A DNA stretch of 64,000 nt from Parvularcula sp. GTDB lineage: Bacteria > Pseudomonadota > Alphaproteobacteria > Caulobacterales > Parvularculaceae. A program made the position numbers and the translations under genes. How positions within the stretch are numbered: position 1 is the stretch's first letter; each line of letters starts with the position of its first letter. Positions 144 to 9,302 of the stretch are shown one piece after another. The DNA lies in NCBI GenBank assembly GCA_002704915.1, contig PAIP01000034.1:417936-481935 (forward strand), written 5' to 3'. The notes under the pieces were generated by a model. The model worked only from the letters and a program-made list of their open reading frames with translations, had not been told where the DNA came from and did not search any database.

Positions 144-773
144 TTACGATTTCAACACGGCGATGACGGCGCGGGCGAGGGCGTCTTCATGTCGGGCGAG
201 ATCGCCCGTGACGCGCCCGTAAATCTTGTGCAGCGCCGCCTGCATCACGACGCCAAGCGCGGCCGCCGCCTTCAGGCTCGCATCGCCTTCGGGGATTTCC
301 TTCGCCGCCATGGCGCCGGCGATCATCTCTTCGACGATGGCGACGATGTTGTGCTCGCGGGCCTTTACGGATTTGTCCGCATAGGGAAGAAAACGATGGG
401 TCGTCAGGAGATGATAGGAAAACAGCGTCCAGTCTTCGTCGGCGATTTTGACATAGGCGCCGACGATGGCCCGCGCCTTGGCCTCGATGCCGCGTCTGTC
501 CTTTGCCGCCGCCGCGACTTCGCGCGCCAGGCGGGCGTGGATCGCAAAGAACATGGTCTGGGCTAAAGATTCCTTGCTGGGGTAATGGCGGTATAGCGCG
601 CCTTCCGAAACGCCGCTCTCCGCCGCCATCTCCCGCGTCGTCACGGCGTCGACGCCCCGCGCGCAGAAAAGGTCGAGCGCCGCCCGTTCGATCTTGGCCT
701 TCGCGCCGGAAGCCCCTTCGGTGACGCCCGCGGCGGGGGTCTTCACGGTCTTCGCCTGACGTCTTGCGCCCAT
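144..773 (-). CDS. TetR/AcrR family transcriptional regulator
   Basis: The protein has 209 residues from the ATG at 773. The N-terminal helix-turn-helix is clear at about residues 25-70 (ALDLFCARGVDAVTTREMAA, then SEGALYRHYPSKESL), and the C-terminal three quarters is a variable helical ligand domain, as usual for TetR proteins. The ORF track extends to a GTG at 818, but that codon lies inside a palindromic operator, so the ATG at 773 is preferred. Two identical 16-bp sites lie upstream, which suggests autoregulation and possible control of the divergent gene. The acyltransferase-like gene follows, so a lipid or fatty acyl ligand is possible; this is inference. Confidence 0.85.
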   Translation of the reverse strand: MGARRQAKTVKTPAAGVTEGASGAKAKIERAALDLFCARGVDAVTTREMAAESGVSEGALYRHYPSKESLAQTMFFAIHARLAREVAAAAKDRRGIEAKARAIVGAYVKIADEDWTLFSYHLLTTHRFLPYADKSVKAREHNIVAIVEEMIAGAMAAKEIPEGDASLKAAAALGVVMQAALHKIYGRVTGDLARHEDALARAVIAVLKS

Positions 774-806
774 GGCCCTCTCCCTCGCGCGGTTGCACAA
801 CCTGAT

Positions 807-822
807 GTGAGCGCTCACTCAC
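807..822. promoter_or_regulatory. Probable TetR operator, copy 1
   Basis: The site gtgagcgctcactcac contains the perfect palindrome gtgagcgctcac with an extra half-repeat. An identical copy lies 51 bp away. It sits just upstream of the tetR-like start codon, the usual place for an autoregulatory TetR site. Binding is inferred. Confidence 0.6.
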
Positions 823-873: not shown

Positions 874-991
874 AATTGGACAGGAGATGCTAGAACGGCC
901 TTATGCAGCAAGCGCATCAAGGGCGGCTGCCGCTGTTTTGCTGCGTCTGCAGGACTCCCCGATCAGCATCAAGGCGCCTTATAGAAGAAAC

Positions 992-1843
992 ATGCCTTGG
1001 CAAACGATCAAATACGGATGGGATAACACGTTCCAGTTTTTGGGCGGCTGGGGCGTGGTTGTCGCTGTTGTGCTTGTACCGCTTGTTGGATTTATCCTGC
1101 ACGCGCGGTTTGGGGAGCCCCAGGCCGTGAAGGAAGAATTTTTCATATGGCTAATTTATGGGCTAGCGGCAACAGGGCTCGTATTTCTCGGGATTCTAGC
1201 CATAAATATTCTTGCCGCTCCGCAACAAATTGAACGCGATAAACGTATAGCGCTTGAAGCGACTAATACGGAGATAAACCAGGAGCTGGAGTCCGCCCGA
1301 CAAGAAATACTGAGGCTTGAAGCCGACGCGCCGGATATTGCTGTTGAAATTACTCAACTGGCTTGGGGTGGTCAGTCGCACGGCATTAATAAAGATGGAA
1401 CGATAACGCCAGCAAAAAACCTATATGGGACCGGCATTTCCTTCATTGCGATGATTACTCTCCGCAACAAAGGAACGATGCAATCGGCCATCCCCGGAGT
1501 CCGGATGTACGTCCGACGAGGCGACAATACCCAAGAGTTGACGCTGCACCGGATTACAACTTCCATATCTGTGGATGCAGGAAATGGAACAACCATAAGT
1601 CTTCCGCCCAGCGAGTGGCTTATAAACAAGGTTTACACCCCGATCCCGGAAGGCGGCATCATCACAGGCTTTTTGGTCGCTACGCTTGATGGAGTTGGGG
1701 AACTTCATCCAGACGACAACGCGGTGCTGGTCGTGTCTGTTGAAGATGTTAAAGGCCGCAAGACGCAGCAGGAAATGGAACTGCGCGGAGAAGGTGGTCG
1801 TATTCCATACTTCCGAGGGGCCGAATATACCTCAAAGCCGTAG
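992..1843 (+). CDS. Orphan two-TM membrane protein with coiled coil
   Basis: The ORF opens at 887, but the ATG at 992 (MPWQTIKYGWDN) is the likely start, giving 283 residues. Two hydrophobic segments are visible at about residues 16-37 and 46-73. A short coiled-coil-like stretch (about 78-107, ending QEILRLEA) follows, then a beta-rich soluble domain of about 170 residues with no motif I recognise. Codon use is more A/T-rich than in every neighbour (many AAT, ATA, ACA, GAA codons), which suggests recent acquisition. The gene stands alone, divergent from tetR. No function is proposed. Confidence 0.7.
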   Translation: MPWQTIKYGWDNTFQFLGGWGVVVAVVLVPLVGFILHARFGEPQAVKEEFFIWLIYGLAATGLVFLGILAINILAAPQQIERDKRIALEATNTEINQELESARQEILRLEADAPDIAVEITQLAWGGQSHGINKDGTITPAKNLYGTGISFIAMITLRNKGTMQSAIPGVRMYVRRGDNTQELTLHRITTSISVDAGNGTTISLPPSEWLINKVYTPIPEGGIITGFLVATLDGVGELHPDDNAVLVVSVEDVKGRKTQQEMELRGEGGRIPYFRGAEYTSKP

Positions 1844-2499: not shown

Positions 2500-3996
2500 C
2501 TATTCCGCCGCCTGGCTCGCCGCGGGGTGCGACATGGAAGGGGCGTTGGCCCGGACGGCCTCCATGACCGGGACCGTGATGTGTTCGGGAAGCGTGACGC
2601 CGTCACCGGGCGCATCGGGCGGCGCCCAGAAGAAACCGTAAGGGCTGTGATCGCCGGTGCGCCCCACGGGCTCCAGATCGATCTCGCCGTAAATGTCGGA
2701 AACGATCTTGCGGAATTTTCCCGGCGCGTCGGCGCGGTTCCATTCGACGAAGAGATCGGGCAGGACCTCCGCATGGGGCCCGGGAAAGGCGGCGCGCGCC
2801 GGCACGGTCCGCGCCACGATCGGCTGTCCCGTCTCGGCGTTCTTGAAGGTCATCACCGCCTTCGTGATCTCTTCAATCACCGCGTCATAATCGGCGCCGG
2901 GCTCGATGGTTCCGTATTTTTCGCGGCCTTTGACATTGAGGCGCACGGCGCCGGAATTGTCATTATGCGGAACGGCGAAGAACCGGCGGCGCGCAAAATC
3001 ATTGATGGCGACCTTGCGGCGCAGGGCGCGCACCAGCGGCGCAAAGCGCCGGCGCAGATTGAGCGGCACAAGCGAATGAAAACTTTTCCTGGCGGTTTCG
3101 GCGACTGTCGGCGGCGCGTCAACGCCCCAATCGATGCGCCGCAACATTTCGTCGAGCGCGCCGTTGGCGCTGACAAGCCGCCCCATGCCGGGCCCGCCAT
3201 AAACGAACACCTTTGCATCGCCGCCCGCCGCGTCAAGGATTTCGCCGACAGCTTGATCGATGCGGCGGTAACTCTCCGTCAGCGGCTTTCTCACCTTGTC
3301 GGCAAGCGCCGGATCGTATTCGGCGTGCGTTTCATCTTCGAGATGATAGACGTGATGGCCCACATCATGCGCGTCGGAAAAACACGCGATGAAAAGATCC
3401 CACTCGCGGGCGCGCAACTGATCGCAGCAAAACGCCGTCTTGGCTTTGATGCGGTTAAAAAGATCGGTGAGGTAAGCGTTGATGTCGTCCGCCGTCTTTC
3501 GCGGCCTGAGTTCGAATCCGCCGCCAATCGAGTCCCCTTGAAAATATTTTTTGCCTTCTTCGGCAAGGGAAGGCGGCATCCAGATTGTGTCGGTCAGCGG
3601 GTCATGACCAAGCCAGTTGTCCACAAGATGGCCGTGTTTGAGCGGCTTCGGCATCATGCGGTGCCAGTCGACGACGGCGACGCGATAGCCTTCCTCATCC
3701 AGCCGGTTCCAGAAAGGCGTGATGTCCGGCAGCGAGGATTCGTGATTGGGAATGATGTCGTAGGTGTCCGGTTTGAAATGCATGTAGAAATGATGGCCGT
3801 GATGGCCGGGACCGGCGCCGATGGAGGCGCTGTTCCAGAATTGCGCGGCTCCCTGGGCGGCGTCGTTTTCGATGGCGTGGACGGCGGCGCGCGCGCGCAG
3901 GCGTTTGAACGCGGGCAATTCGCCCGCCTCAATCAGCCGATCCATGAACGCCGGATCTGCGCCGTCCAGCCCGAACATCACTATTTTCGCCGTCAT
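2500..3996 (-). CDS. Alkaline phosphatase superfamily protein (COG3379-like), paralogue 1
   Basis: This 498-residue protein is the third gene of a minus-strand trio. The fold is recognisable from the N-terminal metal-site strand MFGLDGADPAF, the block GHHGHHFY, the late signature LNVKGREKYGTIEPG, and the C-terminal GDHSPYGFFWAPP, matching the GTHR-type metal His region of the family. However, the position where this superfamily normally has its Thr/Ser nucleophile (before PAW) reads GAAQFW, and the usual SDHG metal motif reads GGPG. Activity as a phosphohydrolase is therefore doubtful. No signal peptide is visible, so it is probably cytoplasmic. The gap to the upstream paralogue is 87 bp. Confidence 0.75.
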   Translation of the reverse strand: MTAKIVMFGLDGADPAFMDRLIEAGELPAFKRLRARAAVHAIENDAAQGAAQFWNSASIGAGPGHHGHHFYMHFKPDTYDIIPNHESSLPDITPFWNRLDEEGYRVAVVDWHRMMPKPLKHGHLVDNWLGHDPLTDTIWMPPSLAEEGKKYFQGDSIGGGFELRPRKTADDINAYLTDLFNRIKAKTAFCCDQLRAREWDLFIACFSDAHDVGHHVYHLEDETHAEYDPALADKVRKPLTESYRRIDQAVGEILDAAGGDAKVFVYGGPGMGRLVSANGALDEMLRRIDWGVDAPPTVAETARKSFHSLVPLNLRRRFAPLVRALRRKVAINDFARRRFFAVPHNDNSGAVRLNVKGREKYGTIEPGADYDAVIEEITKAVMTFKNAETGQPIVARTVPARAAFPGPHAEVLPDLFVEWNRADAPGKFRKIVSDIYGEIDLEPVGRTGDHSPYGFFWAPPDAPGDGVTLPEHITVPVMEAVRANAPSMSHPAASQAAE

Positions 3997-4083
3997 CGTC
4001 CGCCCGTTTCCCCCGCACTCACGTCAAAGCTCGACTGCAGCAAATATTCTGCCACGCCCTGCAAGGTTAACAAAGCGCGGCGA

Positions 4084-5550
4084 TTAAAGGGCGGGAGGGG
4101 ACGTGTGGACGCTCGCCATGACGGCGCCGGCGACGTCTTCGGGTTTCTTCGCGGGCTCGGTGAAATGAACCGCCGGTCCCCAGAAAAACCCGAATGGGGT
4201 GTGATCGCCGGTGCGGGTCTTCGGTGAAACCATGACCTCGCCGAATTTTTCCGACACGACTTTGCCGAAATCGCTGCGCGTTCCTGCGCGGTCCCACTCC
4301 ACAAAAAGATCGGGAAGAATATCGCGATTAGGCCCCTCGATTTCCCTGGAGACATCGACCACGCGCTTGACGATGGAGCGCCCCGTGGCTGGATTGAGGA
4401 AAGACGAGACCCCGTCGCGGATTTCCGCGACCAGCGCGTCATATTCCGCACCCGGAGAGATAGTTCCGAATTTCTCGCGGCCCTTCAGATTGATGCGGAT
4501 CGCGCCCGCATTGTCATTATGGGGCACGGCGAAAAACCGCCGCTGATGATACTCGCTTTTGGCGAGGCGGCGCCGGAAAAGCCTGGCGAGGGGCGCAAGC
4601 CGTCCGCGCAGGCCCTTCGGGATAAGAGAGTGATAGGTTCTTTTTGCGCTTTCGGAACTCGAAAGCGGCGCGCCGACGCCCATATCGATGCGCCTCACGA
4701 TTTCATCGAAGGCCGTATTGGCGCTGACAAGCGGCTCCATGCCGGGTCCGCCCAGGACAAAAACGGAGGCGTCAGGGCCTGCGGCGTCTATGAGATCGCC
4801 AATCGCGTTGTCGAGCCGGCGATAACATTGCTTCAATGGATGGGGAATCGCGCGCGCGATATCAGGGTCGTAAAGCGCGTTCTGTTCATCCTCCAACTGA
4901 ATATAATAATGCCCGACATTATGGGCTTCGGAGAAGCAGGCGATGTAGAGATCGAAGTCGCCGTCTCGAATATGGTCTGCAAAGAAAGACGCCTTGATGT
5001 CGATCCGTCCAAGAATCCGATCATAAAACTCTTTCATGGCGTCAGCGCCGTCGCGCGGCTGGCTGCCGAATCCTTCCGCAATCGGATCGCTCGGGGCGTA
5101 TTTTGCGACGATTTCGGCCATCTCAGGGGGATGAAACACCGAAGGCGTATAAGGGTCCTGGGCGAACCAGCGATGCATGACGACGCCGTTCTTCAACGGA
5201 TCGGACGGCATCCCGTACCAGTCGACGACAGCCGCGCGATAGCCTTCGTCATCCAGCTTTCGCCAGAAGGCCGTGATGGCGGGAAGATCGAATTCATAGT
5301 CGAGGACGATGTCGTAATTTTCCGGATTGAAATTCAGATAGAAATAGCGCGCGTGATGACCCGGTCCTGCGCCCGTGGCTGCGGAGGTCCAGAACTGCAC
5401 ATTGCCTTGCGCCGGGTCGTTCTCGATTTCGAACGCTGCCGATCTGTCTTTAAGCCGCCGAAAATTCGGCAATTCGCCGTCGGCGATCATGGCGTTCACA
5501 AACGCGGAGTCCGCGCCGTCAAAGCCGAGTACCAGAGTTTTTGTTGGCAT
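4084..5550 (-). CDS. Alkaline phosphatase superfamily protein (COG3379-like), paralogue 2
   Basis: The ORF is open to 5712, but the ATG at 5550 (MPTKTLVLGFDGADSAF) aligns exactly with the starts of the two sister genes, giving 488 residues. It keeps the same landmarks: LGFDGAD at the N-terminus, QFWTSAATGAGPGHHARYFY, a HNVGH motif, INLKGREKFGTISPG and GDHTPFGFFWGP. The nucleophile position reads GNVQFW and the DHG motif is replaced by GGPGM, as in the other two copies. It starts 13 bp after the stop of paralogue 3 and is probably translated from the same transcript. The substrate is unknown. Confidence 0.75.
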   Translation of the reverse strand: MPTKTLVLGFDGADSAFVNAMIADGELPNFRRLKDRSAAFEIENDPAQGNVQFWTSAATGAGPGHHARYFYLNFNPENYDIVLDYEFDLPAITAFWRKLDDEGYRAAVVDWYGMPSDPLKNGVVMHRWFAQDPYTPSVFHPPEMAEIVAKYAPSDPIAEGFGSQPRDGADAMKEFYDRILGRIDIKASFFADHIRDGDFDLYIACFSEAHNVGHYYIQLEDEQNALYDPDIARAIPHPLKQCYRRLDNAIGDLIDAAGPDASVFVLGGPGMEPLVSANTAFDEIVRRIDMGVGAPLSSSESAKRTYHSLIPKGLRGRLAPLARLFRRRLAKSEYHQRRFFAVPHNDNAGAIRINLKGREKFGTISPGAEYDALVAEIRDGVSSFLNPATGRSIVKRVVDVSREIEGPNRDILPDLFVEWDRAGTRSDFGKVVSEKFGEVMVSPKTRTGDHTPFGFFWGPAVHFTEPAKKPEDVAGAVMASVHTSPPAL

Positions 5551-5563
5551 CTGCTTTCCGGTC

Positions 5564-7042
5564 TTAACGATTTTGCCTATTGCGCGGCGCCGCGGTGCGG
5601 ATAGCGGCGAGCATTGGCGCGGCGACGTCGCGCGGACGCGATATCGCCGTCTCTGAAAACGCAGGCGGCGCCCATAAAAACCCGAAGGGGCTATGATCGC
5701 CGGTGCGCGCATGCCGCGCTACGGTCACCTCGCCGAACAGTTCCGAGACAAGCGTTCTGAAATCCCCGCGGGTGTCTGTGCGGTCCCACTCAATGAAAAC
5801 ATCGGGAAGCATGTCGCGATAAGGCCCGTCGAATTCCTTTGACGTGTCGATAACGCGCTTCACGATGGAGCGTCCGGTTGCCGGATTGATGAAACTGGAG
5901 ACTCCTTCGCGGATTTCCTCGATGACGGACTGATATTCATTGCCGGGCGCAACGGTTCCGAATTTCTCCCGGCCTTTGAGATTGATGCGGACCGCGCCGG
6001 CATTGTCATTATGGGGGACGGCGAAAAAGCGCCGGTCACGGTAAGCATTTCGCGCAAGCAGCCGGCGTCCCCATTGCGCAAATGGGCGGAGATGGCCGCG
6101 CAAAGATGCGGGGATCAGCGAATGGTAGGTTTCCTTCGCCGCATCGGCTGTCGTCAAGGGCGCTTCATAACCCACATCGACGCGCCGGATCATTTCGTCA
6201 ATCGCGCCATTGGCGCTGATGAATTCCTCCATGCCCGGCCCGCCGAGCAGGAAGACATTCGCTTCGTCGCCGGCGGCGGAAATGACAGCGCCGAGGACCT
6301 TGTCGATCCGGCGATAGCATTCGCGCAGGGGTTTGCCGATCTCGGCCGCGAGCGTCGCATCGTGCAGGCCGTGGCGATCATCCTCCACGTCCATATAATA
6401 GTGCCCAACATTATGCGCTTCTGAAAGGCAGGCGATATAAAAGTCGTAGTCCTTGTCGCGCAGGTGATCGGTGAAAAAAGACCCCTTGATATCGATGCGC
6501 GAAAAAACACGGTCGAGAAATTCCTGCCGTTCCGCCGCGCTGCGCCGGGGGCGGCTGGCGTAGCCTTCCGCGATCGGATCGCTTTCAGCATAACGGGCGG
6601 CAAGCTCGCCCAGCGCTTCGGGGTGAAAGACGGTCTTCGTCAGCGGCTCTTCGGCGAACCATCGGTGGATGACCTCGCCATGGGTCAGGGGGGTGACCGG
6701 CATTTCGTACCAGTCGACGACCGCCCCGCGATAGCCTTCTCCGTCAAGCTGCTTCCAGAAAGGCGTCACCGGCGGGAGGGGAAAGTGAGGTTCGGATATG
6801 ATGGCGTAGCTGTCGGGGTCGAACTGCATGTAAAAGTAATGGCCGTGATGGGCCGGGTTCTCGCCGATGGCGGCGGAGGTCCAGAACTGGACATTTCCCT
6901 GGCCGGGGTCGTTTTCAAACTCAAACGTCGCCGAGCGCTCCTTCAGGGCCTTGAAATGGGGCAGCTCGCCCTCGGCGATCAGCCGGTCGATGAAACGGCG
7001 ATCGGCGCCGTCGAGGCCGATAATCAGGGTTCTGGCCGCCAT
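5564..7042 (-). CDS. Alkaline phosphatase superfamily protein (COG3379-like), paralogue 3
   Basis: This is the promoter-proximal gene of the trio, 492 residues from the ATG at 7042 (MAARTLIIGLDGADRRF); the longer ORF to 7423 runs back into the divergent yajC leader. It shows the same conserved blocks: GNVQFWTSAAIGENPAHHGHYFY, HNVGHYYMD, GGPGMEEF, INLKGREKFGTVAPG and GDHSPFGFLWAPP. All three proteins are close in sequence throughout, so they arose by tandem duplication. Members of COG3379 are annotated only as predicted phosphohydrolases or phosphomutases, so even without the altered active site the reaction would be uncertain. Confidence 0.75.
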   Translation of the reverse strand: MAARTLIIGLDGADRRFIDRLIAEGELPHFKALKERSATFEFENDPGQGNVQFWTSAAIGENPAHHGHYFYMQFDPDSYAIISEPHFPLPPVTPFWKQLDGEGYRGAVVDWYEMPVTPLTHGEVIHRWFAEEPLTKTVFHPEALGELAARYAESDPIAEGYASRPRRSAAERQEFLDRVFSRIDIKGSFFTDHLRDKDYDFYIACLSEAHNVGHYYMDVEDDRHGLHDATLAAEIGKPLRECYRRIDKVLGAVISAAGDEANVFLLGGPGMEEFISANGAIDEMIRRVDVGYEAPLTTADAAKETYHSLIPASLRGHLRPFAQWGRRLLARNAYRDRRFFAVPHNDNAGAVRINLKGREKFGTVAPGNEYQSVIEEIREGVSSFINPATGRSIVKRVIDTSKEFDGPYRDMLPDVFIEWDRTDTRGDFRTLVSELFGEVTVARHARTGDHSPFGFLWAPPAFSETAISRPRDVAAPMLAAIRTAAPRNRQNR

Positions 7043-7152: not shown

Positions 7153-7180
7153 TTGCAACCGCACCTTGGATCGCTATATA
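7153..7180 (+). promoter_or_regulatory. Putative promoter for yajC-secD-secF
   Basis: ttgcaa (7153-7158) and tatata (7175-7180, within gctatata) are spaced by 16 bp. The -10 resembles the gCTATA form seen in alphaproteobacterial housekeeping promoters. It lies about 100 bp upstream of the yajC start. Confidence 0.4.
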
Positions 7181-7282
7181 TCCCGCGGACCTTGCCGGGC
7201 CAATGAATCTGGAAGACGGGGCCAGAACAAGATAAATCGTCCGGCTGTCCGATCTCATGCTTCCCGAGGGAGTTACCTGCCG

Positions 7283-7612
7283 ATGTTCTTTTCGCCCGCT
7301 TATGCGCAGGCCGCCGACGCCGCCGCGCCGAATCCGCTTCTCAATCTTGCGTTTCCGGTGCTGATCTTCGTGATTTTCTGGTTCCTGCTGATCCGCCCGC
7401 AAATGAATGCGCGCAAAAAACATCAGGAAATGGTGTCCAATGTGCGCCGCGGGGATGTGGTGGTGACCGCGGGAGGCATCGTCGGCAAGGTGACCAAGGT
7501 GCTCGAGGGCGAGGAGGTCATGGTGGAGCTCGCCGACAATGTGACGGTCAAGGTTGTCAAATCCACCTTGAGCGACGTGCGCACCAAGCCTCAGCCCCCG
7601 GCCAACGACTAG
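7283..7612 (+). CDS. yajC: Preprotein translocase subunit YajC
   Basis: The protein has 109 residues from the ATG at 7283; the upstream extension of the ORF is non-coding leader. A short periplasmic N-terminus is followed by one membrane helix (about residues 21-39, ending LLIRPQ) and a cytoplasmic beta-rich domain with the family signature RRGDVVVTAGGIVGKVTKV. YajC accompanies SecDF at the Sec translocon. The gene directly precedes secD and secF on the same strand, the standard order, and is most likely the first gene of that operon. Confidence 0.95.
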   Translation: MFFSPAYAQAADAAAPNPLLNLAFPVLIFVIFWFLLIRPQMNARKKHQEMVSNVRRGDVVVTAGGIVGKVTKVLEGEEVMVELADNVTVKVVKSTLSDVRTKPQPPAND

Positions 7613-7667: not shown

Positions 7668-9302
7668 ATGCTTCAGTTTTCAAAATTCCAGATCGCCGGC
7701 GTTGCGTTCATTGTTTTTCTCGGCGCCCTTTTTGCGCTTCCCAATCTCCTGTCCGAAGATGCAAGGGAAAGCTTGCCGGGCTTTCTGCCCAAGGGAACGA
7801 TCAATCTCGGTCTCGATCTTCAGGGCGGGTCTCACCTGCTCCTCAGCGTCGATACGGCCAAGGTTATCGACGACCGCATGAAGGCGCTTTTGGGCGACGT
7901 GCGCCGGGAATTGAGGCCTAACAGGGCGGCCAATCGCGAGCGGGTTTCCATTGAAAGTATTTCCTATGACGAGGAAGAAAACGTCATCTCCCTGCTGATC
8001 GCTGATCCGGCGGATGCAGAAGAAGCCGAAGAGCGATTGCGCAGCCTGACCCGCGGCGGTGTGGGCGGCGCGCTGGGGCTCGGCATTCGCGCATATTCGT
8101 TGAGCGCTGACGGCCAGCGTTTCGAGATCGCCATGACGCCCGAAGCCGAGCGGTTTTACGCCGACGGCGCGGTGCGCGATTCCATCGAAGTCATTCGCCG
8201 CCGCATCGACCCCGCCGGCAACAAGGAAGTGCTGATCGCGCCCCAGGGCGTCGACCGCATCGTGGTCCAGGTGCCGGGCGACAATGACCCGGAAGCCTTG
8301 AAGGCGCTGATCGACGTTGAGGGCCAGCTTAGTTTCCATCGTCACGATCCGACGGTAAGCCTTGCGGATGCGCAGGCGGGACTGCTGCCGCCGGGCCGCA
8401 TGTATCTTCCCTTCGTCGAAGGGGAAGGATCGGGACGGCCGGGCCTCGTTCTTTACGAAGACCCTGAAATCACCAGCGACATGGTCGTCGATGCGACGGC
8501 GGGTCTTAATTCCGACGGCATTGGCTTTCAGATCAATTTTGAATTCGACAATCGCGGCGCCCGCCGCTTCGGCGAATACACCCGCAACAATATCGGGGCC
8601 GTGTTTGCGATTGTGCTCGATGGCGAGATCATCTCCGCGCCGACAATCCAGTCCGCGATCACGCAAGGGCAGGGGCGCATCACCGGTAATTTCTCTGCTC
8701 AGGAGGCGGACAATATCGCGCTCTTGATCCGCTCCGGCGCGCTGCCGGCGCAGTTGCAGACAATCGAACAGAGGTCTGTCGGCGCGCAGCTTGGCCAGGA
8801 CTCCGTTGAAGCGGGTGCCAAGGCGCTGGTCATCGGCTTTGTCGCCGTCATTCTTTACATGATCATCAGCTATGGCCGGTTTGGCGTTTACGCAGACTTT
8901 GCGCTGATCGCGAATGTCATCCTGATTGCGGGCATCCTGTCGCTTCTCGGCTCGACGCTGACCCTGCCCGGCATCGCCGGCATCGTCCTGACCATCGGCA
9001 TGGCGGTGGACGCCAATGTGCTGATTTTCGAGCGTATTCGCGAGGAAATCATCGGCGGCAAGTCGCCGATCAAGGCGGCCGAAACGGGCTATGACAAGGC
9101 TCGCTCGGCCATTATCGACGCGAACATCACGACCTTCCTCGCGGCGCTGATCATGTTCCAGCTCGGCGCGGGGCCGGTGCGCGGTTTTGCGATTACCCTT
9201 GCGGTGGGCGTCGTAACCTCGGTCTTCACGGCCTATGTGCTGACGCGGCTTTTCGCGGGGGGCTATCTCCTCGCCAAACGGCCGCAAGAAATCAAACTTT
9301 AA
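7668..9302 (+). CDS. secD: Protein translocase subunit SecD
   Basis: This 544-residue protein has the SecD layout. An N-terminal membrane helix (about 8-25) is followed by the motif NLGLDLQGGSHLLL near residue 50 and a large periplasmic P1 domain. Five further membrane segments lie from about residue 380 to the end, including the conserved TIGMAVDANVLIFERIREE. SecD with SecF uses the proton gradient to pull exported proteins out of the SecYEG channel on the periplasmic side. The size fits the alphaproteobacterial form. yajC lies 55 bp upstream and secF 12 bp downstream, so the three form one operon. Confidence 0.97.
   Translation: MLQFSKFQIAGVAFIVFLGALFALPNLLSEDARESLPGFLPKGTINLGLDLQGGSHLLLSVDTAKVIDDRMKALLGDVRRELRPNRAANRERVSIESISYDEEENVISLLIADPADAEEAEERLRSLTRGGVGGALGLGIRAYSLSADGQRFEIAMTPEAERFYADGAVRDSIEVIRRRIDPAGNKEVLIAPQGVDRIVVQVPGDNDPEALKALIDVEGQLSFHRHDPTVSLADAQAGLLPPGRMYLPFVEGEGSGRPGLVLYEDPEITSDMVVDATAGLNSDGIGFQINFEFDNRGARRFGEYTRNNIGAVFAIVLDGEIISAPTIQSAITQGQGRITGNFSAQEADNIALLIRSGALPAQLQTIEQRSVGAQLGQDSVEAGAKALVIGFVAVILYMIISYGRFGVYADFALIANVILIAGILSLLGSTLTLPGIAGIVLTIGMAVDANVLIFERIREEIIGGKSPIKAAETGYDKARSAIIDANITTFLAALIMFQLGAGPVRGFAITLAVGVVTSVFTAYVLTRLFAGGYLLAKRPQEIKL

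Follow-up and report, generated by a model that had tools for sequence, protein, structure and literature searches.

An old clade of alkaline-phosphatase-superfamily proteins with a putative three-histidine metal site

The 64,000-nucleotide stretch of Parvularcula sp. DNA analysed here (the window) contains an array of three tandem genes whose products belong to the alkaline phosphatase (AP) superfamily. These proteins probably represent an old clade of the superfamily in which the two-metal covalent site was reduced and rebuilt, giving a mononuclear metal-1 protein (we put the probability of this reading at about 0.55). The clade protein is more likely to be an enzyme using a metal-bound water than one relying on the covalent chemistry of AP.

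The array genes and their active-site columns

The three genes (P0001, P0002 and P0003) are arranged head to tail, separated by 13 and 87 nt, and contain no internal stops (Table 1). P0002 and P0003 exceed the PF01663 cut-off. P0001 has no Pfam match at E≤1; it is 59% identical to the PF01663-matching P0002 and 48% identical to P0003 (48-59% within the trio), and 82% identical to its orthologue in the same genus. The three proteins align gap-free up to the C-terminus, and one numbering is used for all of them. Since each protein opens with the first strand of the domain and no signal peptide is apparent by eye, a cytosolic location is likely. Scanning the array for promoters and terminators yielded no signal exceeding chance.

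Table 1. Positions in the window of the array genes, their active-site segments and the genes bordering the array
Feature	Positions	Strand	Remarks
TetR-family regulator, border of the array site	144..818	-	PF00440, E 7e-14
AP-superfamily gene 3 (P0003)	3996-2500	-	498 aa; frame intact; PF01663, E 6e-13
AP-superfamily gene 2 (P0002)	5550-4084	-	488 aa; frame intact; PF01663 Phosphodiest, E 3e-12
AP-superfamily gene 1 (P0001)	7042-5564	-	492 aa; frame intact
Nucleophile segment, gene 1	6881..6895	-	N50-V-Q-F-W54; hhalign against ordinary members
Nucleophile segment, gene 2	5389-5403	-	NVQFW
Nucleophile segment, gene 3	3835-3849	-	AAQFW
Metal-1 motif, gene 1	6401..6421	-	E208-A-H210-N-V-G-H214
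Metal-1 motif, gene 2	4909-4929	-	
Metal-1 motif, gene 3	3355-3375	-	DAHDVGH
Former metal-2 Asp-His, gene 1	6233..6244	-	G267-G-P-G270; SDHG in ordinary members
Former metal-2 Asp-His, gene 2	4741-4752	-	GGPG
Former metal-2 Asp-His, gene 3	3187-3198	-	GGPG
R352-R358 block, gene 1	5966..5989	-	R352-I-N-L-K-G-R358-E
R352-R358 block, gene 2	4474-4497	-	
R352-R358 block, gene 3	2920-2943	-	
Third metal-1 ligand position, gene 1	5693..5701	-	G448-D-H450
Third metal-1 ligand position, gene 2	4201-4209	-	GDH
Third metal-1 ligand position, gene 3	2647-2655	-	GDH
YajC, other border of the array site	7166..7612	+	PF02699, E 1e-25; border conserved
SecD, then SecF, downstream of YajC	7668-9302 (SecD)		SecDF domains

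The original prediction had described proteins that keep the fold signatures of the superfamily (LDGAD, an INLKGRE-type block and a final GDH) and carry replaced residues at key sites, and these residues were correct in all three. Its assignment of the motifs to catalytic positions, made by eye, was borne out by profile-profile alignment with ordinary members. When the 38-member family alignment was compared by hhalign with that of six ordinary COG3379-type proteins having a Ser/Thr nucleophile, a probability of 100 and an E-value of 2e-61 were obtained over 472 columns. In this alignment, the Ser/Thr nucleophile corresponds to N/A50, the metal-1 Asp to H210 and the two metal-1 His residues to H214 and H450; for metal 2, the Asp corresponds to D11 and the Asp-His to G268-P269. 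When the family profile was aligned with phosphonoacetate hydrolase (PhnA), the nucleophile column fell on the Thr of SFTNPN. Full-length homology to the AP superfamily is thus detectable by PF01663 (P0002 and P0003), by hhalign and by the profile match to PhnA (E 1.6e-9), which is the best solved relative (3szy, 3t02, 1ei6). The AF2 model, built from five sequences, was poor (mean pLDDT 52) and unusable for the active site; Foldseek on this poor model again placed phosphonoacetate hydrolase first, with a TM-score of just 0.28.

In the window trio, the [LF]DGAD motif occupies positions 10-14. The nucleophile segment, ending at W54, reads GNVQFW in P0001 and P0002 and GAAQFW in P0003; no Ser/Thr or formylglycine Cys nucleophile is present at this site in the three proteins, which have N50, N50 and A50. 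The metal-2 Asp-His (DHG) is missing and all three read GGPG. Positions 210-214 read HNVGH or HDVGH, and the metal-1 Asp/His/His is replaced by His/His/His, two of the three ligands being unchanged. Positions 353-359 read [IL]N[LV]KGRE. The pattern [ED]xHxxxH...RxNxxGR[ED]...GxH, together with the loss of the metal-2 Asp, is present in all the window proteins. That H210, H214 and H450 occupy the metal-1 triad, site 1 being apparently rebuilt and not lost, had been missed in the original prediction, as had a fourth paralogue, P0004, located about 300 kb from the array on the same contig. The genome is without an ordinary member of the family, and the ordinary-member profile retrieves just P0001-P0004. 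A TetR-family gene, different from the one adjacent to the array, lies directly downstream of P0004 (8298-8897 of locus L072, minus strand).

Conservation across the clade and age of the substitutions

The clade comprises 40 proteins from 15 genera, and seven further held-out members that were not used for building the family profile; it includes Alphaproteobacteria and Cyanobacteria. H210, H214, H450, R352 and R358 are invariant in the 40 members, all of which have Glu or Asp at position 208; D11 (36 of 40), D110, K186, W128 and E/D208 are near-invariant. The held-out members all keep E208, H210, H214, R352, R358 and H450 and have all lost the metal-2 Asp. In the ordinary outgroup, which is small (six or seven rows), position 210 is Asp in 7/7 and H450 is also found in 7/7, and R352 is missing from all seven. 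Eight different residues occupy the nucleophile column of the 40 members (N9 A10 S8 H5 D3 T2 P2 V1); ten members, including both cyanobacterial ones, have Ser or Thr there. The metal-2 Asp is gone in 39/40 members and the metal-2 His in 26/40. In terms of column entropy, position 50 lies at the 61st percentile, and positions 210, 214, 352, 358 and 450 at zero.

A maximum-likelihood tree was built with the active-site columns masked. On this tree, the 40 members were found on one side of a branch with a support of 100/99. A single change was counted at each of positions 210 and 208, against 16 in the nucleophile column and nine and eight, respectively, in the metal-2 columns 268 and 269. Members belonging to other families of the class also carry the Gly-Pro that replaces the metal-2 Asp-His; relatives on more distant branches often have SHG or LHG at this position. 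Because H210 has a single origin, is invariant across the clade and the column entropies are in agreement, the shared substitutions are older than the array, which inherited them and did not make them. The metal-1 Asp became His in a single event, at the root of a family spanning the class, and this His was then kept. Furthermore, the frozen state of His210, His214 and His450, set against the 16 changes in the nucleophile column, suggests that metal site 1 was rebuilt as a three-His site and that the nucleophile and metal site 2 were abandoned. The selection for a new function that was first suggested for the paralogues is upheld in so far as altered catalysis or ligand binding is likely; its supposed origin together with the duplication is not, as the changes predate it.

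Within the family to which the window belongs, two divergent members (L014:1036-2535 and L015:1387-2910) carry SASVW, EIHRAGH and ALHGM; they have Ser at the nucleophile column and have kept the metal-2 His and lost the metal-2 Asp. Ser433, conserved in 38/40 members, is the sole Ser, Thr or Cys of the clade conserved at 90% or above. Its codon is shared by P0001, P0002 and P0003, and the position is unconserved in the ordinary rows.

Chromosomal site and distribution

Pairwise comparison of orthologues and paralogues gave dN/dS values of 0.07-0.22; dS was close to 1 or higher, its upper values being rough owing to saturation. Decay is excluded by the purifying selection that these ratios reveal. 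Together with the intact frames and the same-locus orthologues in the genus, this agrees with the earlier view of the genes as otherwise intact.

In four genomes of the genus (G003, G004, G017 and G027), one to three array copies lie between yajC-secDF and tetR-plsC-MFS, and the same interval is without an array gene in eight other genus members. The TetR neighbour is present in 12/12 other genus genomes examined, whether or not they carry the array. As an accessory cassette, the array occupies a fixed site, and it has undergone duplication within the genus; on the tree, its NVQ-type and AAQ-type lineages are each strongly supported. A functional link to tetR-plsC-MFS was considered and is weakened, since these genes stay together in the eight array-less members; the AP genes are an insert beside this trio. 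In genome G011 (L106:8000-10588), a large histidine kinase gene takes the place of the array between tetR and yajC, and the interval may accept different inserts. In the window itself, positions 887-1843 (plus strand), between the array and tetR, encode a 318-aa protein unrelated to the array, with membrane segments visible by eye; it has no Pfam match, and no counterpart was found at the site in the genus members checked. The SecD gene of G027 is broken up into three frames (L070:6191-7781), probably by sequencing errors, and the in-frame stops reported in the AP genes of this genome are to be read with such probable errors in mind.

Relatives were detected in about 5% of the sampled Alphaproteobacteria (at least 15/289 and at least 19/385, in overlapping samples), these figures being lower bounds with few candidates scored per genome. 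They also occur on cyanobacterial plasmids. Among the matches examined from 399 genomes of the phylum, there were no further clade members; no relatives were found on viral contigs. A phage origin was rejected, phage records giving no match. The genome-contig scan for relatives returned a single locus. A role in anti-phage defence, where AP-like domains such as PglZ are used, was also considered and dropped, no PADLOC model being matched at E≤0.01. The one haloarchaeal plasmid match examined, from Halorussus (L057), was rejected as a clade member because it keeps PDNVLH and SDHG and is of the ordinary type; it was used as an outgroup.

Proposed mechanism, rival explanations and known systems

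Three-His centres, with or without a Glu, are found in carbonic anhydrase, in the first site of metallo-beta-lactamases and in cupins. AP catalysis relies on metal 2 to activate the nucleophile and on metal 1 to bind the phosphate. For NPP3, a second half-reaction by a Zn1-bound water has been proposed (PMC6052110). In the clade, site 2 and the Ser/Thr nucleophile would have been given up and site 1 kept with an Asp to His change. The resulting active site would consist of the three His (210, 214 and 450), the acidic Glu/Asp208, the retained Asp11 and the invariant Arg352 and Arg358. One divalent metal in site 1 would activate a water molecule or hold the anionic group of the substrate, and the reaction would proceed by direct attack with no phospho-enzyme; Glu/Asp208 and Asp11 could provide a further ligand or a base, and Arg352 and Arg358 could bind the anion. 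We infer that a metal is bound, that it is single and that the clade proteins are enzymes; a single water-carrying metal at the three-His site would be the simplest working model.

A parallel to this arrangement is offered by the PorX effector domain (APS, a type IX secretion regulator), which has a two-site AP fold. Wild-type PorX, a zinc phosphodiesterase, retains the Thr together with the full set of ligands. Its T271V variant carries 1.22 Zn per chain, with metal in site 1 and none in site 2 (PMC11320123). In the clade, this T271V state seems to have become natural and permanent, with His in place of one site-1 ligand.

The main rival is a metal-holding pseudoenzyme, in which the AP fold would bind a ligand or partner (a lipid, a glycan intermediate or a protein) and the His residues would hold a structural metal or shape the pocket, with no catalysis. 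The free drift of the nucleophile and metal-2 ligands would suit such a protein, and a non-catalytic AP fold was argued earlier for PbgA/YejM, for which another group reports a magnesium-dependent phosphatase (PMC7576196). However, the three His and two Arg that are invariant, with D11, D110, K186, W128 and E/D208 nearly so, are what a functioning polar site would show, unlike a bare scaffold, and we hold the pseudoenzyme to be possible but doubtful. It is unlikely that covalent phosphodiesterase or phosphatase activity was retained, whether through another nucleophile, Ser433 being the sole candidate, or through a mechanism tolerating Asn or Ala. The conservation of Ser433 at a position that varies in the ordinary rows and the retention of D11 would favour it, but in the window proteins the nucleophile-activating metal has lost both Asp268 and His269 as ligands, and S433 is located in the segment leading up to GDH, a long way along the chain from the nucleophile loop. 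Furthermore, S102, the nucleophile of AP, is needed for its measurable activity (PMC4438272), and PorX T271V is inactive (PMC11320123).

Two other explanations have very little left to support them. An origin of the substitutions in the window duplicates themselves would accord with the one to three copies seen within the genus and with a nucleophile column that varies between paralogues (NVQ versus AAQ); for the shared substitutions it is refuted by their occurrence in genera of other families and in Cyanobacteria and by the single origin of H210, and we consider it highly improbable. Even less probable are decaying or spurious genes, for which nothing specific speaks except that P0001 is without a Pfam match, and which are refuted by the low dN/dS, the intact frames and the syntenic orthologues.

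The ordinary relatives, the COG3379-type AP phosphohydrolases (NCBI 'alkaline phosphatase family protein', PF01663), have the same D11, H214, H450 and DHG-loop positions; the window proteins have other residues in place of their Ser/Thr nucleophile, their metal-1 Asp and their metal-2 Asp-His, and, unlike the ordinary rows, the clade conserves R352, E/D208, D110 and K186. The nucleotide pyrophosphatases/phosphodiesterases (Xanthomonas NPP 2gsn, NPP3) belong to the same superfamily according to the ordinary-member profile search. In motif order, D168, T206, D326, H330, D373, H374 and H483 of NPP3 correspond to positions 11, 50, 210, 214, 268, 269 and 450; these seven residues are described as strictly conserved in the NPP and AP families (PMC6052110), and the window proteins keep three of them (11, 214 and 450) and have His for a fourth. 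The Thr of PhnA is Ala in the 3t02 structure, a phosphonoacetate complex, and Ala is natural at this position in P0003. The periplasmic domain of PbgA/YejM shares the AP-superfamily fold and a doubted enzymatic status; unlike the window proteins it is membrane-anchored and periplasmic, has a Thr near the metal and is closer to LtaS and EptA (PMC7576196). No description of the clade was found in the open-licence literature on AP pseudoenzymes, on COG3379 or on the combination of pyrophosphatase, exopolysaccharide and asparagine synthase. The AP superfamily is a standard case of one active site used across many reactions, usually with a metal-held nucleophile; a large natural clade in which site 1 was frozen anew and the nucleophile and site 2 discarded would show the dismantling of this machinery and offer a clean test of metal site 1 acting alone.

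More tentatively, the clade may be an AP-fold family whose three-His (plus Glu/Asp208) single-metal chemistry has taken over from covalent phosphoryl transfer and serves the assembly of envelope glycans or lipids, perhaps with a substrate other than a phosphate ester; the substrate would be an envelope glycan or lipid precursor. The gene neighbourhoods of many members outside the window's family give a lead only in this direction. At L075, L076 and L085, asparagine-synthase-like amidotransferases are found with glycosyltransferases, a sugar transferase or flippases; other members adjoin a flippase (L087), glycosyltransferases (L083 and L084) or a carbamoyltransferase (L074), and the Nostoc member adjoins an exopolysaccharide cluster. 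No envelope-glycan neighbours were seen by eye at L077-L082. Within the genus of the window, the array has no glycan gene as a direct neighbour; genes for a UDP-sugar dehydrogenase and a sugar transferase are located several kb away.

The name 'alkaline phosphatase family protein', as in the Nostoc and Planktothrix records, is probably misleading for the clade. On plasmid p1 of Planktothrix agardhii PCC7805 (L142:4761-6403), the clade gene is broken into three 'hypothetical protein' pieces. In Planktothrix strain No.365 (L055) it is intact and adjoins genes for a phytanoyl-CoA dioxygenase, an L-aspartate oxidase and an asparagine synthase.
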